DNA of 64,000 bases, taken from contig OX393583.1 of assembly GCA_947652605.1 (NCBI GenBank), positions 6,985,222 to 7,049,221 on the forward strand, written 5' to 3'. The DNA is from Elmis aenea. Its lineage: Eukaryota > Arthropoda > Insecta > Coleoptera > Elmidae. The notes under the pieces are model-generated. The model had not been told where the DNA came from and ran no database searches. It was given only the letters and a program-made list of their open reading frames with translations. The position numbers and the translations under genes are program-made. Every line of letters starts with the position of its first letter. Position 1 is the first letter of the stretch. This document shows positions 5,189-62,580 of the stretch, in pieces.

Positions 5189-5475
5189 TATAACCCAAAA
5201 CTCTGATATTCATAATTATCCGACTAGAAACTGTAAAGACTTTAAATTGCCATTCAGGACCCGAAAGTACACTCAAAATTCTCTATTTTATAAAGGATTG
5301 AAATTTTATAACGATCTAACAAGCGAACTTAAACATGAAACTAATATTGTAAGGTTTAGACGTAAGCTCAGTAGTTTTATTAAGGAAAAGTTTTAATTGT
5401 TATATATTCAAATACGTAAGTTGTGAAATTGTAAACAAAATTAGCAAAATGCTAAATAAATTACATTATTATTAT
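5189..5475 (+). pseudogene. LINE 3' end with (ATT)n tail
   Basis: The open stretch to 5396 contains HNYPTRNCKDFKLPF and LFYKGLKFYNDLTSELK, the conserved C-terminus of CR1/L2/Jockey-like reverse transcriptase proteins (NYxTR...YxGxKxYNxLP). A short AT-rich 3' UTR and an ATTATTATT tail at about 5463-5478 follow, as expected at the 3' end of such an element. It is 5'-truncated. Confidence 0.7.
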
Positions 5476-30600: not shown

Positions 30601-33600
30601 TCAACTAAAATTAAAAATGATATAAAAATCACCATACTAAACTAAAATGTTAGATAACGATTGCACTCGAAAGCACTAAATCACCAGAAAACGCCACTAG
30701 ATCTATTTCTTCCAGTTTCATTCTTAGAGCTTAGAGTTTTGTATTGTCTCTAGTCTACCATTTACGTTGATTTTTAAAATTAAAAGTTAAAGGAACTATA
30801 CGCAGAATACTTACCTAGTCAAAAATGTCAATTTTCAATTATAATTAGACCGAAACAAAACTTTATCGCCGGTAAGTGCAGCAGTAGAAGCATTAAACCG
30901 CTGTGATTCTAATATTTTCACTGCTTATGGGGTAAATAATTTCTTGGTAAAAAAAAAATAATTTACGTTTAAGCAAAGATTTGTTAAAAATATCAAGGAA
31001 CGTATGAAAACTCGTGAAAATCTAGAATTAACAGAATTGTCCAAGTGCTTACTAGACCCTCTAAAAACACCATCAAAATCGGATCTAGCATTGGCTACAA
31101 TTTTGTTTTAATCGCCTGTACCTAACAATAAATATGATGAAAACTTTGCGATTGCGAGCAATAGAAAAGAATTGGAAGAATTGCCACGTACGAATAAAAT
31201 ATTGCTAACAGAAGAAATTCAAGAAGCAATTCAAGAGTATTAATAAAAAGTACTTCTAAACAAATAAATCGCTCTTCTCATTCCGTTAAGCAAGACTTCG
31301 CCATATTTAAATAAAAGGTGAGAGAAAAAAAAACTAAATTTGTTGTATAAGGCTTTTTCTACTATTAAAGCTACATTCACGTACGCGAAGAGAACATTTT
31401 CGATAAGGGCAAATTTTTGCACAAAACTGCGTACGCGTTTAAGTGTTAACTTAAATAGTTCGGTGTTTTTGAATTTTTTGAATTTAAATGCCAACCTTAA
31501 GTAAGTATTAGTACATTGTAGTGCAGAAACGTAATGTTTTTGTAGTATATTTTCAATTTTTTAGTGTGTGTATTTTAATAAAAATTAGCATTTTCTTGCT
31601 TGCCATTCAAAAGGGGGTTACTTTTTATATAAGTGTATTGCAGTTTGTCCTTGAAAATTTTATTTTAATAAGTATTTTAAACAATAATTTTGGCACTGTA
31701 AAAAAATTCTTAAAAACCGAAACCGAAACGAAAACCGCGGTTTTTGAATTTATAAACCGAAAACCGCGGTTTTTAAAATATGCGTTTTTTCAGAAAGCCT
31801 AGATTACATTTAGCAAAACGCCTTTCAAATTTATTGACTTGAAACGTCCAGTAAGACACTGATCATTTTTTCCGCTGGCCTTAAACCGTATAAGAATTTT
31901 TACATACCTGTAGCAAAACGATTTGCACTTGAAAGAATTAATTTCCATGCAACTCTTCGCGCAGTACACGAGAGTGACATTCGACACCCTCTCTTGCTCG
32001 CGTAGAGCCAACCTGGAATTAGGAATCAGCGAGAAGTTATCCAAATATTTCTCGCAGTTTATTTCGTCTATCCCGTTTGAACAATCCTGGAAAGAAAAAT
32101 GTATAAAATGGGCCCCATTTATAAGTTCTATTTCTTTTTTAACACCTTGAATCCATCGCAGACCATGCTTCTTGAAATACAATCATCTACATCGCACTGG
32201 AAGTCGGAGCTATCGCAATAATCCTTCCGTCTTCTCGGGTCTTTTTCTGTGTAGGTTTCTGTTGGTTCGGGTCCCAGTACGGAGTCTTCGCCTTCGAAGA
32301 CGTAGTCTGCGTTTGTGTCCGTCGACGGAAACGGTGGAGGCCACTGCCTTCTGCCGGTGGTCCTTGGTGTAACTTGGGTCGTCAAGGTCCTAACAGTCGA
32401 ATATCTTGCTGGACCTCGGCTTGGGTGTACATATCCTGGATGACTCCTCGGGGTAACTTGAGTTGTTAAAGTTCTGCCTGTCGTTTGTACATTTTGGGCT
32501 GGGATTTTATAAACAAACTCCTAAAAACGTTTAACTTTATTATGAAATATTTCTAACGAAAATGTAGGAATTAAACAATAAGTTTTTGGCAAAGGCTGTG
32601 GAATATGGGGAGCAGCTCAACGGAGATAAAGCACATCTGTAAGCCTTGGACATTGTGCAACCATATTTCAAGCCCAATATACGCTAAGCAGAAAAATATT
32701 TTAGTAATTAAAGAATCTTCATAGTGTCAGACAGCCAAGCAGCGTTAAAAGCTCTTGGCTCGTCGGAAGTAAACCCATGACTTGTTCTGAACTGCATCCG
32801 GGCACTTAACGCGCTAGGAAGCAGGAATCATGTTAAACTAGTATGGTCCAGAGCACACTGATATACCAGGGAACGAGAAGGCAGATCGCCTAGCTAAAAT
32901 TGTCAGCGAGACACCTTTCTTCGGACCAAATGCTGTCTAAATCACATTATGTTACACAGAAGCATAATACTCATTGCAAAGTAGTAGGACAAGACCATTC
33001 TAAGGCTATCCCGTCAAAGGTCATTAAAGAAAAGACTGAATGAGCAGTGAAGACATCAGAGCAGCCACCGGACTCATCACAAGATACTGTGGACTAAACC
33101 AACATTTCTACATAATAGAGCTCTCAGAGACCGACATAAGCAGAGGATGTGGTGAAGAAGAAGAAACTCCTTTTCACGTATTATGCCAGTATGAAGGATT
33201 CACACTCTATTGGTGTAGACTTCCGGGGATGGAAAAAGCAACCAAGAGGAGTTAAGAAAAACACCCTTGAAGAAATTTAGGAGTTTTTCAAAAACACAGG
33301 ACTTCTTTAAGGGGCTATCACCAGAGAGTACAACAGGCCAATAGGTCGTAGTACAGGAATCCGAAAGGGGACTACCTCCGCGGAAATAAATAAAAAACAA
33401 AATGTTGCCTAAAAAATCATTAATCTACATTTACAATATGGTACAAATAAGTATTAATGAACCTTCAATACGGAAGTGTTTTAATTTTTAATAAAAATTA
33501 TATTTTGGGTCCATATTACCATTTTTTTTGCTAAAGAAAATTTCGTAGCAAAAAGTCACTTTTTCACATGGAGGGCTACAATATTTAATTAGTGTCGGGT

Positions 33601-36600
33601 TATAGTGTTTCTCTTCAAAAAATATGTTTATTTCATAATTTTTTGGAAAGGTTGTTAAGACTTGATGTTTTTTACAACTGTTTTTTTTATAAGAGCAATG
33701 GAAAATTAAGGCATTATTAAATAAAATATGCGATCGCTTCGTTTAATAAAGATTTAAATAAATAACTTACTTGTTGATTATTATTTTGAGTTTGATTTCG
33801 TTGTTGATTTGCATTGTAGTATTGACTCTGAGCTGTATCTTGATCAAGTCGGTTTTGCCCACCGCTACTACCAAATTCTTGTCTATTTGCATTATATCCT
33901 AACTGCCCTTCATTCGCTCGGTGATGCTGATGCTGTGTGTTACCAGAATTCTGTCCATATTGTCTGTTATCGGTTTGCCAGTATATATTTTTGTTTCCGC
34001 TTTGGGTTTTATTACTTTCACTTTCAGATATTTTCCCCTGGTATGTGCTTTTCCCAGCACAGTTAACATTATGTGGGAAGTCACATATTTTTGAAACTGA
34101 GTTGAAAAGGGTACCTGGACCGCAATCTTGTATGAACGTTTGCCCATTTGCACAGTTAAGGAATTTTGAGCAATCCGTCGGGTGGGGATGCAATCCCGCA
34201 ACATTTTTCGGGCAAGAAGCTGGCGTGGCGCTTCCTGTGTTAACACTTCCTGTTTGGGAAACATACGCTCCATATTGCGTGCTCTGCCCAAAACCTCTGG
34301 ATTGTCCTGAATTCGATGTTCCTTGCTGTGGGTTTTGATTAGGACATTGCACGTTATGCGGAAAATCGCATACTTTGGAGAGGGGATTGAAGACAGTTCC
34401 TGGACCACAATTTTGTATGAAAGTTTGGCCGTTTGCACAGTTCAAAAACAAGGAACAGTCAGTGGGATGCGGAAACATTCCTTTGGCACCTGCAGGACAT
34501 TTTAGTTCACCATTCTTGGTTGTTGTAAAGGTATTTTGCGCTCCTGTTGTTGTGTAACTGCCCTGATTTTGACCCTGGTAGCTTGTTTGGTGAACATTCT
34601 GGTTAGTTCGTGAACCTTGTCCGCTCGGATGTCCATATTGGCCACCTTGGTTTTTATTGTTGGTCAGTTGCTGTTGGTTAAATGTGGTTTGAGTTTGGCT
34701 GCTGTAGCTTCCTTGGTGATCTTGATTGTGTCTCCCGGGGTGTTGTCCTTGAGAAGATTCGTACTGACCTATGTAACCTTGGTGGAACCGGGAATCGCGC
34801 GGTCTTGTACTCTGCTGGTTTTGGCCATGGAATTGTCCCTGGTAATTATTGTTTTCTTGGACAAATTGGGGTGGGTTTGGTTTATGTTGTGCTCCCACTT
34901 GTTGGTCAAAGTGTCCCTGGTAATTGTTGTTGTGTTGGATGAATTGCTGTTTTCCCCCCTGTTGACCAAGCTGCCCTTGATAACTGCCACTTTGATGGTC
35001 GAATTGCTGTTGTGTGCCAGTCTGTTGGTCAATATGTTGCTGGCAGTTGTTGCCCTGTTGAGTTGGCTGTTGGAAATTTGGATTGTATTGATACGGTTTC
35101 CCAACTTGTTGACCAGCTTGTTGGCTGGACTGTCCCGGATCGTTGCAATTTTGTGGGGGATTAAATTCGTTTCGACCGCTTTGCCCACCGGATGGCCCTA
35201 CAGACGGTCTAAATTGGCCCTGGTAGACACTTCCATGCTGGTCATGTTGTCCCCGATATTTGTTACTCTGATAATTAGCAGTATTTTGCGAGAACTGGTC
35301 CGTTTTTTTCCTATTTCCACCAGCGTCATAGCCAGTGTCCCCGTAACTCTCGCTCAACCAGTTGTACTGGCCGTAAAATTGCGAATTTCCTGTATTTTCA
35401 TACTGCAAAGTCCACGTCGCGCACTCCGCAGCTTGGGCAAAATTACAATTGTTGATTTTCACGCTGAACAGCGTGCCAGGGGGACAATCCATAACGTATT
35501 CCCGGCCGTTCGCGCAGTTTATAAACTTGCTGCAGTCCGTGTGATGAGGAATGATACCATCAAAGCCCGACGGGCATTTCATTTGAACTTTCGAAGCTGC
35601 CGATCGCTGTTGGTTGTCTTCAACGAAATTCCGCGAACCGGATATGCACTCTACTTTCGCGGCATAATCGCATTCAAGTGTTTTTGGGTTGAAAAGGGTA
35701 CCTGGGCCACAAGTGAGTACGTGGCCACGTCCTTTCCAACAGTTCAGGAATTGGTTGCACGAAAGCGCGTAAACGAATTGTCCTGTTGCCATTTTCGGGC
35801 ACTTGCTGTACACCTCTATGGTTATTGGTTTAATATCGGAAGCGGAAACTTGTATATCATCGTGCTCGTTTTCCACGGGATATTTCCTAGCTTGTTTTGA
35901 GTTTTCAACCACAATTTTTGGCTTGGGAATGTCAGCTGTCGTTTGGTAATAGTCGCGTTGTTGCAGTTCTGCTTCGATTATTTGATCTATGCGATTTTTG
36001 TTACTGTACGGACTTTGCTGTAACTGTTGGTGTGTGGTGGAGGAAATGATGTCTTCACTGTGATGTGTGTTAGCCCCAAAGTCCTGAATTTGACCGGGGT
36101 TGTCATCAAAATCTCGATTTTGGCCCGTGTTATCCCCAAAGTCCCGTATTCGGCCCGTGTTATCCCCAAAGTCCCGTATTTGGCCCGTGTTGTCCCCAAA
36201 GTCCCGTATTTGGCCGGTGTTGTCCCCAAAGTCCCGTATTTGGCCCGTGTTGTCCCCAAAGTCCCGTGTTTGGCCCGTGTTATCCCCGGTGTCCCGTATT
36301 TGACCTATGTTGTCTCCAAGGTCCTTACTCTGACCCATATTTTCTCCAAAATCTTCAGTTTGGCTTGTATAGGCCCCAAAGTCTCGACTTTGGCCAAAAT
36401 TATTGCTTAAATTTTGCGTTTGTTCCGTGTTTTGATTAATATTATGTTGCCAAATGTTTTGGGTACTTTGGCTGTGTTGAGAGACGTGCTGCGGGCTTTG
36501 GTAACCACTTGAAGAGTTTGTTTGAACGGAAACTCTGCTGTAATTGTGGTGCACTTGAACTTGGTTGTAATTATCTGGATTTTGCCATCCTATCGTTTTG

Positions 36601-37492
36601 ATTCCCAATGTGTCTAAAGTTTGTTTTGTCATTGGCTTGCCAGGCACGTGGATCTAAAAGGTTTTGATTATAATACAGACTGTTTATTTTTTGAAGTACA
36701 TGCATTGCTGTATGTGTTAAACACAAATATTTAATTTCTCTTTGATTTTTGAAAGCAACAAAAATTAAACGCATTCAAAATCCATATGAAATTACAAACT
36801 AAAGTGGAAGAAATAAAGTCAAACTCATGCAAAAATAAATTGAACAAAATACTCACAATATTTTGATTTCTAAAAATATATACAGGGTGTCCCAGATAAC
36901 ATTTCCAGCATGGGGATCTCGTTTATTATAAGAGATACAGGTGTGCTTAATTTGGATGAATTATTAAGTATGAGAGGAGCCACAATCAATTTTCAAAAGT
37001 ACAAAATTCCTCTTACTTCAGATGTTACAGCAAAAAATATAAAAATGTTGAATTTCTTTCTTCTCTTTTAACTTTTTCGTCTTAATCATTAAAGCAACTT
37101 TGTCAGTACTTTTTCTAGGTACTTTTTAATGTTATTTTAGATTTCTTTTATCACTTACCATTTTTGAGATATTAAAAAGTATCTTAAGTAATATACTTGG
37201 AAATAATTCATCTAATTTAAGCAAACCTGTATCTCTTATAATAAGCGAGATCCCCATGCTGGAAATATTACCTGGGACACCCTGTATAAGCTTTCAAACG
37301 ACTTAAGTTCTTTTCATGTAACAATCTTATATTTTGATTACTATTACAGCAAAGTGTGTTCTTCGAAAAACCCAACCTGTACTTAAAACTAAAAACTAAC
37401 GATTAAATAATACTTACAGCTTCATATTTTTCGAAAACCAATAGAGATGTCAACAAACTTATTAAAAAAACTTTTACACTAAACCTACACAT
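21619..37492 (-). CDS. teq: Tequila/neurotrypsin-like modular secreted serine protease, 13 exons
   Basis: Exons (minus): 37492-37418, 36653-33771, 32520-32146, 32086-31908, 30003-29717, 29452-29208, 29154-29002, 28130-27944, 25695-25552, 25492-25320, 25198-24817, 24765-24589, 21746-21619; phases agree and give 1795 aa. Residues 1-25 are a signal peptide. CBM14 chitin-binding domains lie at about 309-361, 385-436, 744-793 and 839-890, separated by Gln-rich linkers. Then come LDLa 1088-1122, a PAN-like module 1135-1205, LDLa 1208-1241, SRCR 1249-1354, LDLa 1361-1398, SRCR 1402-1505 and trypsin from 1553. The triad is His1597 (TAAHC), Asp1646 (NNDLAVIKL) and Ser1744 (GDSGGPL). Asp1738 predicts trypsin-like specificity. 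Activation would cut FR|VVESS, where most relatives have IVGG. It likely acts extracellularly on chitinous matrix, or in immunity or synaptic roles as in Drosophila Tequila. The symbol is by architecture, not proven orthology. Confidence 0.93.
22043..22417. mobile_element. Solo LTR (375 bp) with 4-bp target duplication
   Basis: The sequence begins TGTCACGACC and ends CGTGGCA (TG...CA), flanked by ATAT on both sides (22039-22042 and 22418-22421). It contains a TCTATATAA box and is more GC-rich than its surroundings. No second copy or internal region is adjacent, so it is a solo LTR left by recombination of a Ty3/gypsy-type element. It lies in the last intron of the protease gene. Confidence 0.75.
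23195..23590. repeat. Inverted repeat, arms about 150 bp
   Basis: 23201-23345 and 23447-23590 are inverted copies. Both contain AAATATCTCGCTTAAACGAA and a GAACATCGCTAT-type block or their complements. The spacer is about 100 bp. Frames across the arms are artefacts of the repeat. Confidence 0.6.
23690..23767. mobile_element. Right-half copy of the 15861-16133 MITE
   Basis: The blocks CTGATAATAACCGAGATACC and AAAATAGGCCACCCTG (ending 23767, then TA) match the right end of the MITE at 15861-16133. The matching left end is not found. Confidence 0.6.
25881..26150. mobile_element. Possible single hAT end
   Basis: CAGTGGCGGATCTTGATTTT, then GTGGGGCGCC, resembles the CAGNGGCGGA hAT termini at 9744 and 15582. 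No partner end or target duplication was found nearby, so the right boundary is arbitrary. Confidence 0.3.
26154..27417. mobile_element. 1.26-kb TA-flanked element in protease intron 8
   Basis: CAGGGTGGTCCAAATTCGAT and its complement bound the element, flanked by TA. The subterminal ATGGGTATCTCGCTTAATAG is repeated in inverted orientation near the right end. Inverted similarity extends about 90 bp (to ACCAAAAATGTG). It contains a second complete element. Confidence 0.8.
26546..27170. mobile_element. 625-bp TA-flanked element nested in 26154-27417
   Basis: CAGGGTGTGTAAAAATTGGC at 26546 faces its exact complement ending ACACACCCTG at 27170. The inverted repeats are about 95 bp and nearly perfect (they include GGGCTACACGGGGCGATGTT). 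TA flanks both ends. The high arm identity suggests it is younger than its host element. Confidence 0.85.
28194..28449. mobile_element. 256-bp hAT MITE with 8-bp target duplication
   Basis: CAGCGTTTCTCAAAC and its complement GTTTGAGAAACGCTG form the ends, with GGGTCGCG subterminal boxes as in SPIN-like hAT elements. An exact duplication GTGTAGAT flanks it (28186-28193 and 28450-28457). It lies in intron 7 of the protease gene. Confidence 0.9.
28588..28815 (+). pseudogene. LINE 3' fragment in protease intron 7
   Basis: The translations [20 protein letters not shown] and [18 protein letters not shown]...[10 protein letters not shown] match two parts of the C-terminal region of insect RTE-like LINE proteins. 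They are brought together by an internal deletion, with stops between. It is antisense to the protease gene. Confidence 0.65.
30122..30302. mobile_element. 181-bp CAGGGTG MITE
   Basis: CAGGGTGGGTAAATTTCGAT and its complement form the ends. The subterminal TAGGGAATCTCGGTGACAAT is the family motif. The left flank has lost TA; the right flank is TA. It lies in intron 4 of the protease gene, and the short frames across it are not genes. Confidence 0.75.
30945..31500 (+). pseudogene. Degenerate hAT transposase, C-terminal part
   Basis: The plus-strand translation includes [20 protein letters not shown] and, after stops and frameshifts, [20 protein letters not shown] followed by FLNF. The latter is the C-terminal hAT dimerisation signature (ERxFS..g.f.tK.R.rLs...l..l.FL). 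Flanking sequence out to about 30480 and 31795 is full of AACCG/CGGTT words (ACCGCGGTTTTT), as in the MITE at 50236-50681, and is probably the element's ends. It lies in intron 4 of the protease gene. Confidence 0.7.
32590..33250 (+). pseudogene. LINE fragment with RNase H domain and C-terminal zinc-binding region
   Basis: In shifting frames one reads [11 protein letters not shown], the RNase H active-site strand; [10 protein letters not shown], the RNase H C-terminal box; and [18 protein letters not shown], the cysteine/histidine tail of I/R1/Jockey-group polymerases. Multiple frameshifts make it a dead copy. It lies antisense in intron 2 of the protease gene. Confidence 0.7.
36070..36400 (-). 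repeat. 30-bp tandem coding repeat in the protease exon 2
   Basis: About 11 in-frame copies of a 30-bp unit encode a decapeptide close to [10 protein letters not shown]. The central copies are nearly identical and the edge copies have diverged, as expected from unequal exchange. They lie upstream of the first chitin-binding domain and would give a polar, disordered spacer. Confidence 0.85.
36883..37284. mobile_element. 402-bp CAGGGTGTCCC MITE in protease intron 1
   Basis: TA-flanked CAGGGTGTCCCAGATAAC faces its complement ending GGGACACCCTG. The subterminal ATGGGGATCTCGTTTATTAT is repeated inverted at the right. Deletion copies of this family occur at 45139-45347 and about 63500-63819. Confidence 0.85.
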
Positions 37493-47901: not shown

Positions 47902-48046
47902 TTTAATACATTTTGTGTTTTTATTTAAAATGCAAGATCCAAGAAGTGCTAATACATTTACATGTCATCAAAAAAATTAAGTTACAATATTTAACCCGCT
48001 ATAACAATTTTATTAGTCGTTTCTAAGTTTTAAAATTTGCTGGAGA

Positions 48047-49313
48047 GGGCAAAGTGATATTTTCAAGTAGGCTATGAAGGTAGACAGCGGTAATTTGAAA
48101 CAATTGAAGAAAAAAAAAAACAAGAAACTTATAATTTTATCTTTTGCCTACACATTTTTGACATTTTTTCATAAGAAAGTTGTAATTTTACGTTTGAATG
48201 GGGGTTTCTCATAAGCAGTGGTGAGCTGTAGGGGGCTCGCGCGAGCCCTTTGTTAAATTATTCCTTAATTTGCGAGCCCCTTGTTCTTCTTGTTAACCAT
48301 TTTCTCAAGAAAAAATATATCTTAAAATCATTGTCATTACATACATTTGTAAAGCGACGAAGTCATGCCTATCAAGCAAAAACGATTAAATTTAGAATAA
48401 CCCGTCGCACATTAGAATTTTTTGAATTATGTACAATCACTCGATTATTCACGTTTGAATTTAAAATGCCATTTTTTTTTCCAACATATAATTAACATTA
48501 TTTTTTTGTTTTTATTTAACTATGAGCGAGCCCTTTGTTAAAAATTTCATAGCTCACCACTGCTCATAAGGGCCACAATATTTTTCATATAATTGAGTTT
48601 GATCGTTTGTCAAGTCCTAAAAACCCATTGATAATGTATTAGGCACGCGAAAAAGACGCTGATTAAAAAAAGGTTTATACTGACTTGTCTAATTTTAAAT
48701 TTTAAAAAAGCGTGGTTGGTACCGTTTTAGGCAGAACTAAGTGTCGTATTGTAAACATATAAAAAATAGTTTATAGGATTTAGTAATTATCTTATAACAC
48801 TGGTCCGATAAATAAATGCATAAATAATTTTAAAAAACCCCCATTCAAACGTAAAATTACAACATTTTTATGAAAAAATGTCAAAAATGTGTAGGAAAAA
48901 GATAAAATTATAAGTTTCTTGCTTTTTTCTTTCAATTGTTTCAAATTACCGCTGTCTACCTTCATAGCCTACTTGAAAATATCACTTTGCCCTAATAATT
49001 AACAATAAAATTGCGATATCTCGAAAAATATCAATTTTAGGTAAAAAACAGCCTTTATGTTTTCGAAAGATAATTAAATTTTGTATGTCTTTGTAAAAAA
49101 ATATAGGGTGTTGTATTTAAGAAAAATGAGTTATCGATGTTAAAAGTTTCACGAGTTTGACCAAGCGTAAAAAACGCCCTGGAGCACCCTGTATTTTGAA
49201 AATATTTTTAAAATGTAATCCTTATTGATTTACATAATCTAACCGCAACAGAAGTTTGAAAATATATACTGTTTCGCCATAAAACTCCGTGGCGTCCGTC
49301 GTGACTCACCCTG
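48047..49313. mobile_element. Left-truncated copy of the 1.8-kb inverted-repeat element
   Basis: It starts inside the left arm (GGGCAAAGTGATATTTTCAA) and runs through the spacer and right arm to GTGACTCACCCTG at 49313. A deletion removes part of the right arm around 49182. A hAT MITE (48216-48562) is inserted in it. It lies about 150 bp downstream of the TMEM248-like gene. Confidence 0.75.
48216..48562. mobile_element. 347-bp hAT MITE with 8-bp target duplication, nested
   Basis: CAGTGGTGAGCTGTAGG and its complement ending GAGCTCACCACTG are flanked by an exact 8-bp duplication CTCATAAG (48208-48215 and 48563-48570). The subterminal GAGCCCTTTGTTAAA occurs at both ends, and the left end has a GGCTCGCGCGAGCC palindrome. 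The host repeat is interrupted at exactly this point. Confidence 0.9.
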
Positions 49314-49811
49314 TATATACGTATATATACACATAGAGAGAAAATATATTATTTGAAACGTGCAAGATGTTTTTAATATAGTTAATTTAATTTGTGCCAA
49401 TAAATTGGAATATAGTTTATTTAGGTTTTATATTTCCTGGTTTTATTTTGCTTGCAATTCTTGCTAGTCCAGAACAGTTATAATTTAGACTTTGCAGTTT
49501 TTTTTTTTTTCTATGATTCTAGAACAGATTTAAAAAATACTTTTGTTAAACGGACTTTCAACGAATTGCTTATTTTTGTCATGAATTAATTGTGTGTTGT
49601 TTTTAACAATTGCTAAATTTTGAACAAAGAGATACCCAGGGGTTTACAAGAGCCAATTTAAAACTTATTACAAACTACATTTACACCCGAAATAGCCATT
49701 ATTGGCCCTCAATATTATTTGTATTTTTGAATACTTTATTTTTGTGCTATTTTAATTGGTTTTTTAGCTTTGTGATTAAGTTTGAGATATATAACGGGGT
49801 TGAAATTTGCG

Positions 49812-52950: not shown

Positions 52951-54656
52951 AATGAATGTGCCGCCTCGTTCATAATTGCGACCAGTACTATAGTATTATT
53001 CTAACCTAAAATCTATGACATTTCGCGGTAATATTCATGTAGTATTTATAATTATGTTTTATTAACCAAAATGATCAGTTAATGTTAGTGTCCCGTATAA
53101 AAATATGTAGTTAATGTAGAGGTGGTCGTGTTCAAAGTTTTCTCAAATACTTTTTAACATCGTATGGTTGCATGTCACATTATTTGGCTTGAAACTGAGT
53201 TATGCGAATGAGGCAGGTCCCTTTTTGCATTATTAAGCTGCCCATTTGTAAGTTATAGTATTATGGAATGAATGTTAATTGTATAATTATTTTTACAGAT
53301 ATTGAAATTCAACGTACAGAGCTGCGTTCGTCGATGTCGTCTATCAACCATCTGCATCCCCACCCACAAATCTTCAGCGATTGATTTGGAACTGTTGCTT
53401 GTCTGTTTGTTGTTTCCTCATATATACTTCAAGATGTTGTGGAATTGTCGATATCGTACATCAGCCAGGAAATGCTTTAGAACCCTTACTAAAATTAACT
53501 GTGGGTGTCATCTTTATTATCTTCAGTCGTAGTTCGGAGAGTGTTCTTGCTAATGGAACATTAAAGGTAATTTTAACATCGTTTTTGAAACGAATGGATT
53601 GTTAACAGTAGGGGTGGACGATATTGAATTTATATCATCGGCTGTGAATGTTGTATCATAAAACTACTGAAAAAACTGGTGGCTTATGTTGTCATCGATG
53701 TATTGTCCACCTCTAGTAAAAAGTTGTTATCTGTCACTAAGTCTTAGTTTAAAAATTAGTCGGTGTCCTAAGTGTAATTTGGAGTAGCTTTTATTTGCAA
53801 TTGTTTAGAAATAAAAGAGTGACGTTTCTTGATCGTTTTTAAATCTTTTCACTCATGTTTAGGGTTAAAAAGGATGTAATTTATTTTTTGTAATTTATTA
53901 GTGCCGTTTTAATTTCAGGTTGTCCTTTGAGGATCTGGTCACTGTTGGACCTGATGACTGGATGCTGCAGTTTTATCTACATGTCGAGCATCATCGTGTA
54001 GTGCTGTGCTTGCTCGGACAACGGCGTGGTTCGAATTCTTCTGGTGAGAAATTAATTTTTTTTTTTCCTTTGGTTCTGTAATTTTATAATTTTGTTGGTG
54101 GTTTCCTAGGAGGAAATTTTGGGTGGCATTTAAGCAAGGTTTTAGTCATTGTTCAATATAAATAATTATAAAAATAGCACTGATTTTGGATGAAGGATTT
54201 CTTGTAGAAATGCCAAGCCAGTTTCGATCTACCGTCAATGAGACCAGAGTCTTGAAATTGCTTAAGCATCTCTAAGAAAATCCCTTATATAAATTAGCAA
54301 TTATTATTAATTGTAATAATTCTTTGATGATTTCTGAACAATTTTTTCATAGGTTTTTGATAAGTTTTGTTAAATATTGTTATTAATAAAATATTGTTGT
54401 TGCAGATATTTCGATGAAAATGAGGGAATGACAACAGGAAATCATGGAGCCTTCTTGTGGAAAAAAAGGGTGAGTGGTTTAAATTTGTTTTTAGTTTAAA
54501 AAAATAGACTTAAGTCCTTGTACTTTATCCATTTTTTATAAAACTGTCTGAGAGTAAATAATTGTTATAAAATTTAGTTTGTAATTAACATATGGTCGTA
54601 GATTTAATATGTTTTGGATTGCTTCCTTACAAAAGTGCAAAGATTTTGTTCAATAC
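52950..54656 (+). ncRNA. Putative spliced non-coding transcription unit, copy 1
   Basis: Segments bounded by good splice signals: 53299-53566 (tttttacag / gtaatttt), 53919-54043 (atttcag / gtgaga) and 54406-54469 (tgttgcag / gtgagt). The first and last have counterparts with the same splice sites in copies 2 and 3. The reading frames are not preserved between copies, because indels are not multiples of three and stops differ. I therefore call it non-coding, though the 53919-54043 segment is open in one frame. About 330 bp upstream of the first exon is a conserved block with ATGTGCCGCCTCGTTCAT (about 52960) and ATGAGGCAGGTC (about 53208). Confidence 0.4.
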
Positions 54657-55373
54657 TGTTACGCTTAAGATTAGAGCCTACGGTATATTATCATGATATG
54701 TAATTGTGTAATTGTAGATGTTATCTTAATAGCTTCCGTGGGTTTGGCAATTCGGTTTACCTCATCAATTTATGTGGCACGTGTGGTAACCCACCGCGAC
54801 CATAAGTTGACCAACATTCTAGGAGATACGCACTTCTGCGCTATCTGTTATTTTTCATATAATTGCAAACCACACCTTTTGTTTTGCCAAACTCAAGGCT
54901 AGCGATGTGTTGTTTGACTTTGTTAATGTCATTCAATTATACGAAAATCCCTATCTTACAATGTAACAATCTAATTTATTATGTATTATTGTATTGTGAG
55001 TTATCTATAGTTGTGGTAATTCTGTTTGATTTACAATAACAACTACCGGATGGATTTTGGTTATTTGGCCTCGTTAATCCGTATAAATACTAGGCCCTTT
55101 GAGTACACTTTTCAGAGTCGTGCCAGACTCCTCAAAGTGTTCCTGTTCAAGTGTTCAAGTGTTCAAGTGTACCAAAATCCATCGGATTATGTTACTGTGT
55201 TTGTGAGTAAAATATATTCTAAGTCCAATTTGGACTTAGCCTAATTTCTGCATGAAAATATATTCTAAGTCCCATTCGAACTTAGTTTGATTTCTGCTAC
55301 TGCTTTAACGATCCTGCATGTACTAACGTACCTCTCGACAGTTACTACGGACTCTTAAAGGCCGTATGTAACA
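54657..55373 (+). repeat. Left LTR of the CHHC-finger retrotransposon (717 bp)
   Basis: It begins TGTTACGCTTAAG and ends GCCGTATGTAACA, an inverted TGTTAC...GTAACA. It matches the right LTR (58390-59114) except for one fewer copy of an 8-bp unit TTCAAGTG (three copies at 55146-55169). A TATAAATA box lies at 55082-55089, followed by the likely transcription start region. Short frames inside the LTR are not genes. Confidence 0.95.
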
Positions 55374-55424
55374 TTTGGTGGAGGCATACCGGTCCTTTTC
55401 TTGGAAAATTCTCCATAATTTTCC

Positions 55425-55646
55425 ATGGATACAAACACCTTCGTCATTTGTAAGGTGGACCCCCATCACCGAGTTTTGTCACATCGCTACGCGAATCACT
55501 TGGGAAAGTGTTTACGCCAGTGTTCCCACAAATACAAACACTGTGAGTGGACGTGGACCCATATAATTTTCGAAGACGATCCGAAATCTGCCGTTTGCAC
55601 GGAATTTTGCAAGAAAATCCGCGCAAATTGGTCCAACCGCTCTTAA
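55425..55646 (+). CDS. Small ORF with CHHC (Gtsf1/U11-48K-type) zinc finger
   Basis: This 73-aa ORF is the first after the left LTR. Residues 9-29 read CKVDPHHRVLSHRYANHLGK with a final C, giving C-x5-H-x9-H-x3-C. That is exactly the CHHC zinc-finger spacing of Gtsf1/Asterix, U11-48K and TRM13. The P-x-H...HL-x-KC residues are also typical. The second half has H-I-I-F-E-DDP-K-SA-V-C-x3-C-K, shared with the next ORF. CHHC fingers bind RNA: the 5' splice site for U11-48K and tRNA for Gtsf1. The ATG at 55425 is 52 bp after the LTR. Function in the element is unknown; retention of the four ligands argues against decay. Confidence 0.75.
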   Translation: MDTNTFVICKVDPHHRVLSHRYANHLGKCLRQCSHKYKHCEWTWTHIIFEDDPKSAVCTEFCKKIRANWSNRS

Positions 55647-55685
55647 GTCGGGTAGTCCTTTTCATTTTTTTTGTGTTGGTTCAGT

Positions 55686-55991
55686 ATGGTCGGTAAACGC
55701 CCATACACCCCTCAAAGCCCCGATTTTAAGCTACGTGCTTTCCCGTGTCGCGTTTGCTACACCTACATGGTGATCGCAAACGGCGAATTTGAACCGTACT
55801 CCCACTATCTGCGGCACTTACAAAAGTGTTTAAAAACAAATACGCGCCCTTATAGCCACTGTCCCACGTACTGGGGCCATGTCATTTTTGCCGACGATCC
55901 GTCTTCCGCCCGTTGCAATTCTCACTGTAAGTGGATGAGCAACCCTTTCAACCACCAATTCAAATGTCCCATAGATATAACACAAGATTGA
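55686..55991 (+). CDS. Small Cys/His-rich ORF, diverged duplicate of the CHHC ORF
   Basis: From the ATG at 55686 this is a 101-aa basic protein. Its C-terminal half carries HC-x6-H-V-I-F-A-DDP-S-SA-R-C-x3-C-K, clearly the same module as in the preceding ORF. The finger itself is altered: HLQKC (H-x3-C) is kept, but the first Cys is followed by CRVC and the C-x5-H spacing is lost. It overlaps the start of gag by 28 bp in another frame, implying a compact polycistronic or reinitiation arrangement. It may be a second zinc-binding module with different ligands. Confidence 0.65.
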   Translation: MVGKRPYTPQSPDFKLRAFPCRVCYTYMVIANGEFEPYSHYLRHLQKCLKTNTRPYSHCPTYWGHVIFADDPSSARCNSHCKWMSNPFNHQFKCPIDITQD

Positions 55992-57337
55992 AGAAACCAC
56001 CTCAGGACAACCTAACAGCCCTAGGGTCCGACGACAGGTTAAACTTCGTTACCAATTCACTCTCACACCGGCTTGATTCCCTTTCCGAATCAATCTCTGA
56101 ACTTTTTACACCCCATTACCGGAGCTCCAGTCTCCCCAGTACGCCCTCGTTGGACGCTGAAGTGATCCACCGCATCGTTGGCCAGTTTTCCCGTCCCGAC
56201 GACCAAGCGGATTACATTATCGCCAATTCTTCTCGCGACAACGTCTCGCAAATTGTTGCTTCATCAAAAAGTCCGCTCTCGCCGCCTCTCCGCTTTGTGC
56301 TAAATCCTTATTCCCAGCTAGATTTGCAAGGCTTGGACGACACTCCAGCCACCGCTAACACATTTTTTCACAACTCAGTTGTCAATACCATCACTAATCC
56401 AGTCCCCGTGTTACAACCAATTATTGTCCAACCCGCAATGCAGAACGTTACTATCAGTGACGCGCTAGAAACGCATCGCACACCGGCGGTGCCAAAATTT
56501 CAAAAGCCAGAAAATTTTAATCCGCTTGACGGAAATGCACAGAAATTTTTGAAAAATTACGAGCAGTGTGCTTTCAACAACTGTTGGAGTCCGCAGCACA
56601 AAATTACCTATTTTGGAAATTTTTTAATCGGCCCAGCTCAAAGTTGGTATCAAGATTTTGTTTCTAATGCCGCTAATTCCCTTAAAACATGGGACGATAT
56701 TAAACTTGCGTTTAAAAATCAGTTCGCGACGGAAAGCGCAAATCGCGATATTACCTTTCGTATTCGGTCCCGCAGACAAGCTGCGACTGAGGACATTAAA
56801 AATTACTATTACGATTTAATTTCCCTTTGTGACCAGTTAGAACCAAAAATTTCGTTTTCACAATTTCGCGACTTTTTTGAGACAAATTTACACCCAACAT
56901 TGTTGTACCAATATTCACTTTTAACGCCAGGAGTAACGACCGAGGAATCGCTTCGCCAGTTAGTATTTCGTATTTCGGAAGCGCGTAGTCGCGCTTCGAT
57001 GGCCCAATTCACATTGGAAGCGCCAAATTTGTTAGCGATGTCAATCGCAGAAAATCAACAACAAACTCAGCCTACGGGGGGAGAGAGATATCAGCGCGAC
57101 GAGCGGCCGCCGAGATATCAGCGCGACGAACAACCGCCGCGGCAGTATGACTATCGCCCGCGAAATAATCAAGCATATAACGCACACTTTCAACAAATGA
57201 GAAACGTGAATAATAGAAGCTTGTGTTTTAACTGCGGTAAATTTGGCCACTTAGCTAGAGTTTGTCAGAAGCCGTTTAACGCTAACAGACGTCTCCTCCA
57301 TGACAATCCTCCGTCCAAGGTGCGACCCTCTGCGTGA
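55964..57337 (+). CDS. Gag polyprotein of the LTR retrotransposon
   Basis: The frame is open for about 457 codons from the ATG at 55964; the frame itself extends further up. The central region (FNPLDGNAQKFLKNYEQCAF, then ITYFGNFLIGPAQSWYQDF and TWDDIKLAFKNQF) is a Retrotrans_gag capsid domain of Ty3/gypsy type. Near the C-terminus, after an Arg/Gln-rich stretch with a repeated RYQRDE unit, is a nucleocapsid knuckle CFNCGKFGHLARVC (C-x2-C-x4-H-x4-C). The frame stops shortly afterwards, where pol would normally start. It is intact, which fits a recent insertion. Confidence 0.9.
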   Translation: MSHRYNTRLKKPPQDNLTALGSDDRLNFVTNSLSHRLDSLSESISELFTPHYRSSSLPSTPSLDAEVIHRIVGQFSRPDDQADYIIANSSRDNVSQIVASSKSPLSPPLRFVLNPYSQLDLQGLDDTPATANTFFHNSVVNTITNPVPVLQPIIVQPAMQNVTISDALETHRTPAVPKFQKPENFNPLDGNAQKFLKNYEQCAFNNCWSPQHKITYFGNFLIGPAQSWYQDFVSNAANSLKTWDDIKLAFKNQFATESANRDITFRIRSRRQAATEDIKNYYYDLISLCDQLEPKISFSQFRDFFETNLHPTLLYQYSLLTPGVTTEESLRQLVFRISEARSRASMAQFTLEAPNLLAMSIAENQQQTQPTGGERYQRDERPPRYQRDEQPPRQYDYRPRNNQAYNAHFQQMRNVNNRSLCFNCGKFGHLARVCQKPFNANRRLLHDNPPSKVRPSA

Positions 57338-58262
57338 TCGTTTATGTCTCATTTCCGAAACATATGACGATTATGTTATCAGCACACTATGTGCCCGGAA
57401 AGTAATCGCCGGAGGATCGGCCGTTGAACTCGCCGAAATTTGTCCTTTCGTATGCCGTCACACCGGTGCTAACTTCCCGTTTGTAACTGCCCTCGGTGGA
57501 AATCGGTTTCTCATAACACACGCTCCTGAACACACGTTCATTCAATGTTCTAATCGCACAATCCAGTTAAATAACTCTGTTAATATTGGAGTTCTTTTTA
57601 TTTCTTTACCTTGCGGCTGTTCTTACAAATATGGTCCTACGAGACATCTTCACCCTATTTATCCTTGTCTCGATAAAACCGTTCAATTGGAACACGCGCG
57701 AATAATTCCCGCTCTTTGGTCCACTGCTCGGAGTATTAAAATACCGCCTATTACTTCTTCGCCGCCAATTTTTAATGACCTAAATGAATGTGTGAATAGG
57801 GATTGGATGACTACAGCTGTAAAACCAGATACTGCCTCACAGCCTCCCACCGCTCTCATTATGAGTAGTATAGCCTTAGTTATATCTTTATGTAGTTTAT
57901 ATTCTTGTTTTATGTTATTTCTTAAAAGACGAATTTTTCTCAGGGAAAGGTTGCCTACGAACCGTTCACGTTGGGAGCCGGATGTTCGGCCACCCGAACT
58001 GTTGCCCAGGCCTGGCGTTGATGGTGATTCAGCGGTACAGTCTGGCCGCCCTCGTGGAACGTCTCCTCGACGTTCCACGACTTCGGTTGATGATTGTGCT
58101 GACGGATACATCACTCCTACCGCTTTGGCATCGGCAAACTTTTCCTTTCCTGCCTCACAGGATGTGGTTACGGATACTCATTATGATTATCCAAAGTTTT
58201 CTAGGCACCCTCGCCCTGCTGAACTGTCGTCGAGAAATGAATATATACCGATGCTCCGTTGA
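57300..58262 (+). CDS. Envelope-like ORF, probably N-terminally truncated
   Basis: This is a 320-aa frame in a different phase from gag, overlapping its last 38 bp. It has an ectodomain rich in Cys with N-x-S/T sites. A single strong transmembrane segment (about residues 186-210) is followed by a basic stop-transfer stretch and a tail of about 110 residues rich in Pro, Ser and Arg. No signal peptide is present at the start. I infer that a deletion removed pol and the 5' part of env, joining gag to the env 3' part. I cannot assign the envelope to a particular viral glycoprotein family. As a broken gene it is unlikely to be functional. Confidence 0.6.
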   Translation: MTILRPRCDPLRDRLCLISETYDDYVISTLCARKVIAGGSAVELAEICPFVCRHTGANFPFVTALGGNRFLITHAPEHTFIQCSNRTIQLNNSVNIGVLFISLPCGCSYKYGPTRHLHPIYPCLDKTVQLEHARIIPALWSTARSIKIPPITSSPPIFNDLNECVNRDWMTTAVKPDTASQPPTALIMSSIALVISLCSLYSCFMLFLKRRIFLRERLPTNRSRWEPDVRPPELLPRPGVDGDSAVQSGRPRGTSPRRSTTSVDDCADGYITPTALASANFSFPASQDVVTDTHYDYPKFSRHPRPAELSSRNEYIPMLR

Positions 58263-58389: not shown

Positions 58390-59114
58390 TGTTACGCTTA
58401 AGATTAGAGCCTACGGTATATTATCATGATATGTAATTGTGTAATTGTAGATGTTATCTTAATAGCTTCCGTGGGTTTGGCAATTCGGTTTACCTCATCA
58501 ATTTATGTGGCACGTGTGGTAACCCACCGCGACCATAAGTTGACCAACATTCTAGGAGATACGCACTTCTGCGCTATCTGTTATTTTTCATATAATTGCA
58601 AACCACACCTTTTGTTTTGCCAAACTCAAGGCTAGCGATGTGTTGTTTGACTTTGTTAATGTCATTCAATTATACGAAAATCCCTATCTTACAATGTAAC
58701 AATCTAATTTATTATGTATTATTGTATTGTGAGTTATCTATAGTTGTGGTAATTCTGTTTGATTTACAATAACAACTACCGGATGGATTTTGGTTATTTG
58801 GCCTCGTTAATCCGTATAAATACTAGGCCCTTTGAGTACACTTTTCAGAGTCGTGCCAGACTCCTCAAAGTGTTCCTGTTCAAGTGTTCAAGTGTTCAAG
58901 TGTTCAAGTGTACCAAAATCCATCGGATTATGTTACTGTGTTTGTGAGTAAAATATATTCTAAGTCCAATTTGGACTTAGCCTAATTTCTGCATGAAAAT
59001 ATATTCTAAGTCCCATTCGAACTTAGTTTGATTTCTGCTACTGCTTTAACGATCCTGCATGTACTAACGTACCTCTCGACAGTTACTACGGACTCTTAAA
59101 GGCCGTATGTAACA
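58390..59114 (+). repeat. Right LTR of the CHHC-finger retrotransposon (725 bp)
   Basis: Its ends are identical to those of the left LTR. It has four copies of TTCAAGTG (58879-58910), where the left LTR has three, which accounts exactly for the 8-bp length difference. The TATAAATA box is at 58815-58822. A purine tract CAGGGGGAG precedes it. Confidence 0.95.
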
Positions 59115-61150
59115 ATACTTTATAGTTTACAATTTTTCATGGACATTTCCAAGTGTTGGGTTGTTTTCTATCAGTTTAACAAGTTCACTTGCATTACAGT
59201 TAATCAGTTTTGAAGTTTAAATACCCAATTTAAAGTTCAAAAATCAAATTAACTCTTTGAAGGTGATAAGCACCTGAGATTTAGGCAACCCAAGTTACAG
59301 CAACTTAGTATTGATCAATACATGAACGAGGCGGCACATTAAAAGTACATAATGGATGAAATTATTTTGACTTTCTTTTTACATGTTATTGGATGTGCCG
59401 CCTCGCTCATTGACGATCACCACCAATACTATATAACCTAAAAACTTTGACGTTTCTTGTGATCATTTTGCAAGTTTCATGTGAAAATAAATGATTTTGT
59501 GAGCATTTTTTCAACATCTGCGTGGTTGAATGTTTGCAGTAAAACATTTTTATGAATGAGGCAGGTCACTTTTTATATTGTTTTATCTTAAGCTGCCTTT
59601 GTGTTGGTTTGTAATACTACCTAATTAATTTTAAAAGTGAAAGTTGAAATAATGTATGATTATTTATTTCTAATGTATATTGTTTTCACAGATATACTTC
59701 AGGCGTGTTGAAATTCAACGCATTTCGTTGTAGTCGTCCCATCAGTCGTCTGATCAGAAATTTTCAGTGAATGATTTGGAACTCGTACTATAATTTAACG
59801 CATATGTACTACCAGTCGTGGTTCAGAGAGGAAGAAGCTTTTTCTCTAATGAACATTAAAGGTAATTTTTATGTTGTTTTTTAAGGATTTCTAAGCCAAT
59901 TGCCTTCTTCATTTCATGGTTTAAGCCAACTGCCTGTTCCGCCTTCCCAATACGTATCAGTGGTTTCTGCTTATATTCTCTTATTATTTTTTGTGAATCT
60001 CTGTTGTTTTCTTTATTTTGTCTCCGAGATCATACATTTCTAGACCTTCTCCCATAACTTGCTTTCTTAGTTGGTCTATGTTACATTCTTTTATTCTTCT
60101 TTCGCATTTCTGCTGTTTGTGTGTTTTACATGTCTGAATGTGTGAAAATCGAAGTTTCTCTGCCTTACATCAACATAGGTGTGACCATTGTTTAATAAAA
60201 TTTTATTCTTCTTGTTAAGCGTTCCGAACATGTGTAATCAAATCGATGTAATTTTAATTCTACGTCTTATCCTTCTCGTAGCTGATGTCTGTTCCTAGAT
60301 AGCAAAAATGTGATATTCGTTTGTTCGTGAGTTATTATTTTGGATCTTATATTACTGGGCAACTTTTTGCAATTCATGTACAGCTGTTTGTAAGTTTTCT
60401 TCCCTATCGCGTGTTGTCATGAAGTGTGTGTTGTCGTGACTGATTTTTTTTTGGAGTTCACTTCACTCTTCTTGGTCAATGTATGTGTTACATCCTAGTC
60501 TGGAAGGTCCATGTTGTGAGTTCTACCGGTATTTAATGTATCGGTTGTTTCTTAAATTTATTATCTGCCAAAGCTTCGTCCTATTCACTTCATCGAAAGC
60601 TTTTTTAAAATCGATGAGTGCTAAATGGATGTCGGCATTTTTTAATTTAAAGGTGTTTTCTGCAGACGATCTTCCTACTCTAAATCCCCAAGTCTCTCGT
60701 TTTTTATTTTCGAGTGCACTTTGTAGGTGGAAATAAGTAAATTAATCCCTTGGTAATTGTTACAATTTATCTCCCGATCTATTAATGCGATACATATTTT
60801 TTATAAAATCAAGTACACTTAATTTTAATTGTTATTAATAAAGTTTTGTTGTTACAGATATTTTTCGATGAAAATGAGGGAATGACGACAGGATGTCATG
60901 GAGTCTTCTTGTGAAAAACCAAAAGGGTGAGTGATTTAAATTTGTTTTAGTTTAAAAAATAGACTATAACCTTTGCACTTTGCTCATTTCTTATAAAAAC
61001 AATTAAATAATAATTTGAACCATCTGAGAGTTAATAATTGTTATTAAATTTAGTTTGTAAAGAACATATACTCGTAGATTTAATATTTTTTGCATGCTTC
61101 CTTACAAAAGTGCAATGATTTTAGTCTATACTTTATAATTTATAATTTTT
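59115..61150 (+). ncRNA. Putative spliced non-coding transcription unit, copy 2
   Basis: Exon-like segments 59692-59861 (ttttcacag / gtaatttt) and 60858-60926 (tgttacag / gtgagt) match those of copy 1 at their splice junctions and in blocks such as GAACATTAAAG and CGATGAAAATGAGGGAATGA. The upstream block has ATGAACGAGGCGGCACAT (59322-59339) facing ATGTGCCGCCTCGCTCAT (59393-59410), a 17-18-bp stem, and ATGAATGAGGCAGGTCAC near 59552. The intron carries an antisense LINE fragment that copy 1 lacks. Frames are not conserved. Confidence 0.4.
59890..60750 (-). pseudogene. LINE RT fragment inside copy 2
   Basis: The minus-strand translation includes FRVGRSSAEN, HLALIDFKKAFDEVNRTKLW (the RT IDFKKAFD box) and, further on, REENLQTAVHELQKVA. 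Decayed thumb and C-terminal motifs follow. It is an internally deleted RTE-like copy with frameshifts. Confidence 0.65.
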
Positions 61151-62580
61151 CACGGAAATTTCTACGTGTTAGGCTGTTTTTTGAATTTGTTAATGTTTTC
61201 TATTAGCTTAACACAATTTAAAAAGTTCATTTGCATCACAGTTGATCAGTTTTGAAGTATTAATGCACAATTTAAGGGTAATGAATCAAATTTACTCTGA
61301 AGGTGATAAAGCGCCTGAGATGTAGGCAACCCAAGTTACAGCACTTGAGATGTAGGCAACCCAAGTTACAGCAACTTAGTATTGATCAATAAATGAACTA
61401 GGCGGCACATTAAAATTTCATATTGGATGAAATAATTTGAACTTATTGTTTTTACTTGTTAGAGGATGTGCCGCCTCGCTTATTGACGATCACGACCAAT
61501 ACTATTTAACCTTAAAACTTTGACGTTTATGTGATCATTTTGCAAGTTTCTTCTGAAAATATATGATTTTGTGAGAGTATTTTTTCAACATCTGCGTGGT
61601 TGAATGTTATTATATTTGCTGTAAATCAGTTGTGTGAATGAGGCAGGTCACTTTTTATGGCATTTTATCTTAAGCTGCCTTTGCGGTGGTTATTGTAATA
61701 ATAACTTATTCATTTTAAAAGTTGAAATAGTGTATGAATATTTATTTCTAATGTATATTGTTTTTACAGATATACTTGAGGCGTGTTGGAATTCAACGCA
61801 TTTCGTCGTCTGATCAGAAATCTTCAGTGAATGATTTGGAACTCGTACTGTAATTTAATGCACGTGTACTACTAGTCGTGGTTCAGAGAGGAAGAAGCTT
61901 TTTTGCTAATTAACATTGAAGGTAATTTTTATGTTATTTTTTAATGAATGCTGTTGAATTTCTAAGCCAAATGCCTTCTTCATATCATGGTTTAAGCGAA
62001 CTGCCTGTTCCGCCTTTCCGATATGTCATTATAAGTGTCCCATTAGTTTTTGCTTATATTCTCTTATTAATCTTTGTTGTTTTCTTAATTTTGTCTCCGA
62101 GATCATACATTTCTAGACCTCCTATAACTTGGTTTCTTATTTGGTTACATTCTTTTATTCTCCTTTCGCATTTCTGCTGTTTGAATCTTATTTATGAATG
62201 AACGTGTGGAAAATTGAAGTTTATCTTCCACTAATCAACATAGGTGTGACCATTGTTTAATAAAATTTTATTCTTGTTAAGCGTTTTTTTTTAATTGTTT
62301 CACACGTGTGTATTCAAGTTGATATAATTTTAATTCTACGTCTTATCCTTCTCGTAACTGATGTCTGTTCATAGATAGCAAAAATGTGATATTAGTTTGG
62401 TCGTGTATTATTATTTTGGATCTTGTATTCTTGGGCAACTTTTTGCAATTCATATACAGCTGTTTGTAAGTTTTCTTCCCTATCCTGTGTAATCGTGAAG
62501 TGTGTGTTGTCGTGTTAAACAAAGTTGATGATATGCTGCACCCTTGTCTGGAAGTTCCATGTTGCGAGTTCTACCGGTAT
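61151..62580 (+). ncRNA. Putative spliced non-coding transcription unit, copy 3 (partial)
   Basis: The block with AGGCGGCACAT (about 61400) and ATGTGCCGCCTCGCTTAT (about 61466), the GAATGAGGCAGGTCAC block (about 61636) and the exon-like segment 61770-61921 all match copy 2. The downstream LINE fragment (61960-62580) is also shared with copy 2. The last exon is not seen; a mariner end begins at 62587. There is a small internal duplication of GAGATGTAGGCAACCCAAGT near 61317-61365. Confidence 0.35.
61960..62580 (-). pseudogene. LINE fragment inside copy 3, duplicated with the unit
   Basis: Collinear with the LINE fragment in copy 2 (shared blocks include CTGTTCCGCCTT and GAGTTCTACCGGTATTTAAT), but lacking the RT FKKAFD part. 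Its presence at the same place in copies 2 and 3, and absence from copy 1, dates the insertion before the copy 2/3 duplication. Confidence 0.5.

Follow-up and report, generated by a model that had tools for sequence, protein, structure and literature searches.

A GTSF1-like double zinc finger gene ahead of gag in an env-bearing Ty3/gypsy lineage of Elmis aenea

The window, which is the whole 64,000-nucleotide stretch of Elmis aenea DNA analysed here, contains a recently inserted retroelement that has lost pol and belongs to an env-bearing Ty3/gypsy family; in it, a short gene, ORF1, lies ahead of gag and encodes two tandem zinc fingers. ORF1 and its diverged duplicate, ORF2, are real genes under purifying selection, and the sequence of ORF1 marks it as probably related to GTSF1, a cofactor of PIWI-directed silencing. 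The explanation that best accounts for all the observations, to which a probability of roughly 45% is assigned, is that the lineage captured a GTSF1-type double-finger gene whose product acts on structured RNA. As far as the searches reached, an env-bearing Ty3/gypsy lineage with a GTSF1-like accessory gene has not been described before.

The retroelement and its two genes ahead of gag

The features of the element are as follows (strand in brackets; a dot where none applies).

54653–54656 (.), left target-site duplication ATAC, repeated at 59115–59118, with an empty paralogous site near 61130
54657–55373 (+), 5′ LTR, 717 bp, TGTTAC...GTAACA, no mismatch against the 3′ LTR
55376–55384 (+), probable primer-binding site core TGGTGGAGG, unchanged in 11 of 16 listed copies
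55403–55424 (+), predicted leader hairpin GGAAAATT-6-AATTTTCC, abutting the ORF1 start codon
55425–55646 including stop (+), ORF1, 73 aa, GTSF1-like double zinc finger, by PF05253 match, family members and purifying selection
55449–55511 (+), ORF1 finger 1, C-x5-H-x9-H-x3-C (Cys9, His15, His25, Cys29)
55542–55610 (+), ORF1 finger 2, C-x5-H-x11-C-x3-C (Cys40, His46, Cys58, Cys62), first two ligands aligning with GTSF1 finger 2
55686–55991 (+), ORF2, 101 aa, diverged duplicate of ORF1, by tblastn and profile–profile comparison (E 3.6e-16)
55746–55829 (+), ORF2 finger 1, changed to C-x2-C-x19-H-x3-C (Cys21, Cys24, His44, Cys48), by four aligned ORF2 sequences
55860–55928 (+), ORF2 finger 2, C-x5-H-x11-C-x3-C, the same pattern as in ORF1
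55964–57337 (+), gag with capsid domain and CCHC knuckle, Ty3-type (PF03732, PF19259, PF00098)
57288–58262 (+), C-terminal remnant of the second env gene, including a stretch that resembles a membrane anchor, by the open frames of relatives
58390–59114 (+), 3′ LTR, 725 bp, by LTR alignment
59115–59118 (.), right target-site duplication ATAC

The two LTRs differ by one extra 8-bp unit in the 3′ LTR alone, and their near-identity, together with ATAC on both flanks and an uninserted tandem paralogue, indicates that the insertion is recent. Both pol and env1 have been deleted from this copy. The env remnant, for which no Pfam match was found, is 98–99% identical to six places in longer relatives, where the open frames reach 576–644 aa. 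The left LTR ends 51 bases before ORF1, ORF1 and ORF2 share a reading frame within 55425–55991, and gag begins within the end of ORF2. No hydrophobic membrane stretch was seen in ORF1 or ORF2 when their sequences were judged by eye. Of 11 distinct leaders, 9 are predicted to form the hairpin, the exceptions being those of L028 and L066; it is possibly an RNA ligand or a translation control. Its energy is unremarkable, since 17% of the 37-mers sampled from the element are predicted to be just as stable. The base pairs at the foot of the hairpin (window 55402–55425 and equivalents) differ between subfamilies.

Several other features of the window were recorded. The element is inserted at the end of a piece (54376–54661) that is 81% identical to 60828–61135, and 59269–60438 and 61340–62514 form a tandem duplication of about 84% identity. 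An inverted repeat of about 775 bp at 13033–14863, with arms 96% identical and related copies at 4319–5193, 8240–8574 and 48046–49318, looks like a non-autonomous DNA transposon. On the minus strand, 24776–36653 contains a 978-aa frame with four CBM_14 (chitin-binding) domains, plus a trypsin domain and a weak PAN match below cut-off; these exons look like those of a multidomain secreted protease. The neighbouring genes point to an arthropod host. Rfam and tRNA scans of the window gave nothing useful.

The initial annotation, made from the letters of the sequence, had described ORF1 as carrying a GTSF1/Asterix-type CHHC finger; its ligand positions for finger 1 in the 73-aa frame after the left LTR are exact, and the surrounding P-x-H and HL-x-KC are both present. 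The GTSF1 connection has held, through a PF05253 match and a relation to GTSF1, but the protein has a double finger and not a single one, and the single-finger reading was dropped on account of the second set of ligands, which follows a 10-residue linker. PF05253 (U11-48K-like CHHC finger) is matched by ORF1 of the window at 26.1 bits (E 7.9e-6), above the curated Pfam cut-off of 21.1 bits, and is the sole family above cut-off in ORF1. ORF2, for which the same profile comparison had been suggested, matched neither PF05253 nor any other family in the Pfam scan.

Conservation and distribution of ORF1 and ORF2

The PF05253 profile is short and was also matched in 2 of 14 control genomes (above cut-off in one), so conservation among copies of ORF1 outweighs the lone Pfam match. 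All 15 ORF1 family members tested match the profile at E 0.01 or better. The source genome, of 516 Mb, holds at least 36 ORF1 places, derived from 59 matches that include cross-matches to ORF2. Comparison of 35 of these copies, all from this one genome, yielded 22 distinct sequences over 66 codons, in which each of the eight ligands is kept in 20–22 (those of finger 1 in 21–22). Ligand losses are confined to three damaged sequences, namely C9Y in L028, an alteration from about residue 60 in L052, and a stop at codon 56 in L048/L049. The ORF1 alignment was built from 15 of the 22 distinct sequences, and the codon tables cover 17 of 18 representatives, the damaged L028 being excluded.

Seven ORF1 representatives share 62–86% amino acid identity, and their 21 pairs show pS of 0.45–1.12 and pN of 0.09–0.29; synonymous sites are saturated in 18 of these pairs, and dN/dS is 0.06–0.14 in the three that are not. 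Over 66 codons, seven of 24 ORF1 pairs gave computable dN/dS values of 0.04–0.34, the highest (0.34) being that of the window against L017. Against its nearest copies (L002 type), the window ORF1 shows two amino-acid changes and no silent change. Of six ORF2 pairs, three are unsaturated and give dN/dS values of 0.10, 0.17 and 0.18. Low nonsynonymous change despite synonymous saturation, with the ligands kept, establishes that both ORFs evolve under purifying selection. This selection is at least as strong on ORF1 as on gag in the three pairs compared (among the window, L019 and L029); between the window and L019, pN is 0.18 for ORF1, 0.30 for gag and 0.31 for ORF2.

These data bear on whether the motif is a chance pattern in the leader, or the frame a decaying one without function. 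When the residues of ORF1 were shuffled, 496 of 200,000 shuffles (about 0.25%) yielded the strict single-finger motif, so that a lone finger can arise from composition, but none of 200,000 yielded the strict motif plus a second finger. Within the 64-kb window, ORF1 is the only one of 231 stop-to-stop frames of at least 60 aa to hold the strict CHHC motif. The chance reading is extremely improbable against the profile match, the 35 copies, and a protein conserved while synonymous change is mostly saturated. It was rejected because the copies and the codon comparison contradict it, and with it fell the concern, raised at the outset, that the ORF might be a random frame without purifying selection on its ligands.

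ORF2 was correctly recognized from the start as a diverged duplicate of ORF1 sharing H-[IV]-I-F-x-DDP-x-SA-x-C-x3-C-K, as the shared motif and a tblastn match (50% identity over 42 aa, E about 1e-10) agree. A CHHC first finger is already lost from ORF2, and the altered pattern that replaces it is retained in all the aligned ORF2 sequences (with x17 in one). Within the window element, ORF1 and ORF2 differ with a dN/dS-type ratio of 0.46 over 42 codons. Window-like and L019-like copies have ORF2, whereas L025, L028, L029 and L067 do not, their ORF1 (71–81 aa) leading straight to gag; no ORF2 is visible in L066 either. In L013 (C6:35872826–35873260), a deletion has left the first part of ORF2 joined to an env-like tail within a single frame of 239 aa.

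LTR elements that carry ORF1 and also include pol, for which the initial annotation had proposed to look, are present in the source genome. In L077 and L072 the pol frame is open and gives Pfam matches to protease, RT, RNase H and integrase, and the env frame matches the baculovirus F protein (E 1.6e-13 and 2.8e-14, respectively); between their LTRs lie Gag, PR-RT-RH-IN, in that order, and a baculovirus-F-type Env, where the window copy has only gag and the env remnant. L071 has pol and an env frame without a Pfam match. An RT search gave 115 scored matches from 907 candidates. Among the matches listed, 20 of the 21 RTs at least 78% identical to the query have ORF1 2.8–3.3 kb upstream and none of the 36 RTs at 54–61% identity has ORF1 beside it, so ORF1 marks one RT clade, subject to the sensitivity of the searches; the remaining 58 RT matches are 42–46% identical. 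For sixteen ORF1 places, the window copy included, no RT is listed in the 6 kb that follow, and many copies are therefore truncated or rearranged. Many copies are clustered at C4:33.54–33.60 Mb and C4:34.79–35.06 Mb of the source genome (G000), some spaced about 8.5–11.5 kb apart in one orientation; such groups may be tandem arrays, or may mark a locus that traps insertions, for instance a piRNA cluster.

The longer elements contain two tandem env-like genes, for example at C3:27472859–27476593 (−) and C5:18826048–18829630 (+), and in at least 16 places an env1-type match is followed, about 3 kb downstream, by an env2-type match. A literature search on paired env genes of this kind gave no paper. 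The env1-type genes are of the baculovirus-F type where scanned. The window env remnant belongs to env2, being 60–99% identical to env2-type and 27–33% identical to env1-type genes. The env1 frames of L077, L069, L072 and L071 have no ATG before the conserved ectodomain, with the first Met at residue 87–100, and env1 is thus probably translated from spliced RNA. GTAA at ORF1 codons 9–10 is a candidate splice donor for env1.

The missing env1 start codon also invites the reading that ORF1 serves, in its 5′ part, mainly as a leader exon for spliced env mRNA, in which case the N-terminal MDTNTFV would reflect Env and the fingers would be secondary. The GTAA donor has phase-matched acceptors in L072 and L071, and some Drosophila errantiviruses are reported to splice env from a short exon that precedes gag (PMC12992720). 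However, selection covers both fingers as far as residue 62, and phase-matched CAG/TAG sites in L077 occur only past a signal-peptide-like stretch, which makes this account of ORF1 a very unlikely one.

Relationship of the fingers to GTSF1 and U11-48K

The source genome appears to have three two-finger GTSF1-like genes of its own (C9:11908862, C7:4781402 and C1:4733985) and a U11-48K-like gene (C1:3905244), all named by resemblance. The C9 and C7 frames have a second finger of C-x5-H-x10-H-x3-C, and the C1 frame is matched twice by PF05253. Aligned with these GTSF1-like genes by hhalign, ORF1 gives E 1.1e-6 over 49 columns, which cover finger 1, Cys40 and His46 and stop before Cys58 and Cys62; the alignment with the U11-48K-like gene gives E 1.6e-6 over 29 columns and takes in finger 1 alone. 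A search of the ORF1 profile against PDB chains placed GTSF1 in the best two of three matches, at E 0.007 and 1.2.

Finger 1 by itself is less telling. That of the window scores equally with the U11-48K-like gene and the best GTSF1-like gene of the genome, which qualifies its first description as a Gtsf1/Asterix-type finger. In five of six sequences (L019, L025, L029, L066 and, narrowly, P0001, a relative described below; the window is tied), finger 1 scores higher with the best GTSF1-type finger than with U11-48K, in a comparison set of five GTSF1-type fingers and one U11-48K finger, an imbalance that favours GTSF1. A U11-48K ancestry for finger 1 is possible on these alignments. A plain U11-48K or TRM13 origin of ORF1 was set aside as the best reading, as the second finger speaks against it.

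ORF2 has moved further away. Its comparison with the GTSF1-like genes of the genome was insignificant (probability 2%), and its profile found ENL as the best PDB match (E 0.06), with GTSF1 not among the six matches. The AlphaFold models of the two ORFs are poor (mean pLDDT 50 and 55). The low-confidence model of ORF2 has a strand-strand-helix arrangement twice, and its two best Foldseek matches are GTSF1 (E 0.25 and 1.0), with U11-48K at rank 4 of 11 and no match at E 0.001.

Tandem fingers and GTSF1 matches, together with a CHCC second finger and a U11-48K-like first finger, lead us to call ORF1 GTSF1-like rather than a member of GTSF1, an identity that is likely on present alignments. Strict membership does not apply to a protein whose finger 2 is CHCC and not CHHC.

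Finger 1 of GTSF1 has been reported to bind RNA, notably tRNA (PMC9539491, PMC9385479), in mouse through R26, R29, K36 and K39 (PMC9385479), and GTSF1 binds PIWI through W98, W107 and W112 (PMC9539491, PMC9385479). In a gapless alignment of finger 1, the four RNA-binding residues of mouse GTSF1 correspond to L18, R21, K28 and R31 of ORF1; positions 21, 28 and 31 are R or K in all 22 distinct sequences, and position 18 is Leu in 21. At most 19 residues follow finger 2 in ORF1, with one Trp there in 14 of the 22 distinct sequences and none in 8, and the PIWI-binding aromatic tail of GTSF1 is not present in any of these 22. Two of the GTSF1-like frames of the genome itself have tryptophans after finger 2. 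From three of four basic positions and the missing tail, we infer that ORF1 would be an RNA-binding module without the PIWI arm.

Outside the source genome, 5.8 billion proteins queried with the ORF1 alignment yielded a single match. This protein, P0001, is encoded on a 515-base ENA contig and aligns at E 3.6e-25 with 59% identity, although Arg replaces His46 of finger 2 and its PF05253 score (17.8) falls under the cut-off. In P0001, NIWWKA lies upstream of MDTNTFV, and the primer-site region of the window translates to NIWWRH; the order of primer site and then ORF1 therefore seems to recur. The source of P0001 may be a relative of the host. In the protein database, a single-sequence ORF1 query gave no candidate and a gag query gave 3308 candidates, none at E 0.001, and viral contigs queried with ORF1, gag and the ORF1/ORF2 pair yielded nothing useful. 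In the part of the open literature covered, no retroelement was described as encoding a CHHC or GTSF1-like protein ahead of gag or elsewhere; the CHHC motif described in Tat elements is a Gag nucleocapsid knuckle (PMC2577118).

Candidate functions and comparison with known systems

The function tentatively preferred for ORF1, on the pattern of its residues, is that of an RNA-binding accessory protein acting on structured RNA, likeliest the leader of the element itself or its tRNA primer. In this env-bearing Ty3/gypsy (errantivirus-like) lineage, ORF1 stands directly before gag, in longer relatives too, and certain subfamilies have in addition its duplicate ORF2, whose first finger is altered. 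ORF1 would descend from a cellular GTSF1-like gene and would have retained the RNA-gripping side of finger 1 without the PIWI-gripping tail, and its product would bind the leader or the tRNA primer, and so could aid priming, packaging or protection of the RNA. The conservation of ORF1 says nothing on which RNA, if any, it binds.

The main rival, which fits the same anatomy, holds that ORF1 is a counter-defence decoy that occupies structured RNAs or piRISC surfaces on which host GTSF1 depends, cannot recruit PIWI for want of the tail, and thereby weakens piRNA silencing of the element. GTSF1-like fingers with three basic RNA-binding positions and no PIWI-binding tail would suit such a decoy, the more so as two host GTSF1-like frames do have tryptophans beyond finger 2. 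In fly ovarian somatic cells, transposons are reported to be silenced by Piwi together with Gtsf1 and Maelstrom (PMC13269885), and the capture of part of nxf2 by TART-A, for which counter-defence was proposed, offers a precedent (PMC7785250). However, a dN/dS well under 1 would be an unusual mark for an arms race, and a host-wide loss of silencing would harm the host of the element too, so that the decoy appears rather unlikely. A more elaborate form, in which GTSF1 was cut down to its RNA-binding fingers, duplicated and diversified into a piRNA-pathway suppressor that competes with host GTSF1 at piRISC-bound or tRNA-primed element RNA, is doubtful and slightly harder to credit. A replication cofactor is favoured over an arms race because purifying selection has been steady over long divergence.

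The fingers could instead bind protein or DNA, with ORF1 and ORF2 having nuclear roles in how the element is transcribed, spliced or exported. Zinc fingers have been reported to make contacts with other proteins in C. elegans GTSF-1 and in the mouse proteins GTSF1L and GTSF2 (PMC9539491), and sORF1 of MDG1 elements, likewise ahead of gag, was found in the nucleus (PMC11952523). The conserved basic positions of the RNA-binding face argue against this possibility, and sORF1 is unrelated, being described in the same source as a potential helix-turn-helix protein and not a zinc finger (PMC11952523); nuclear binding of protein or DNA is thus distinctly unlikely.

An element that is itself a target of silencing keeps a conserved GTSF1-like gene, and a parasite may thus make use of part of the defence of its host. 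tRNAs are the primers of LTR elements. GTSF1, which is needed for PIWI-directed silencing, has been reported to bind tRNAs (PMC9539491). A gene of this kind in a targeted element would open to study what the RNA-binding face of GTSF1 recognizes and whether suppressors of the piRNA pathway exist as proteins encoded by animal transposons. The one-gene and two-gene subfamilies within one genome are natural variants for comparison.

Among known systems, GTSF1/Asterix resembles ORF1 in having two fingers in tandem, separated by a short linker (10 residues in ORF1; 9, 9 and 11 in the C9, C7 and C1 genes), in the PF05253 match of finger 1 and in supplying the best PDB chains. GTSF1 generally carries two CHHC fingers (PMC9539491), whereas ORF1 has Cys in place of the second His of finger 2, ORF2 has a changed finger 1, and ORF1 is encoded by a retroelement, almost without a C-terminal tail and without conserved PIWI-binding tryptophans. 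The CHHC fingers of U11-48K and TRM13 share the pattern of finger 1. U11-48K has a single CHHC finger within a longer protein, whereas the 73-aa ORF1 has a second finger and its match to U11-48K is confined to the first; unlike TRM13, ORF1 has no methyltransferase domain, PF05253 alone being above cut-off in Pfam.

Like errantiviruses, the family of the window element has LTRs, a 4-bp duplication and Gag, with the PR-RT-RH-IN order and a baculovirus-F-type Env in relatives; unlike them, this clade has one or two GTSF1-like ORFs ahead of gag and two tandem env-like genes. The MDG1 group of Drosophila (412, mdg1, Stalker, blood) also has two short ORFs between the 5′ LTR and gag, reported to have low dN/dS (PMC11952523). 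There, sORF1 is described as a potential helix-turn-helix protein and sORF2 as a FAST-like membrane protein (PMC11952523), whereas ORF1 is a PF05253 finger; the MDG1 group is also without Env, unlike the family of the window element. TART-A, like this lineage, is a retroelement that contains a portion of a gene of the piRNA pathway, but its proposed action is through antisense piRNAs and not through an encoded protein (PMC7785250).
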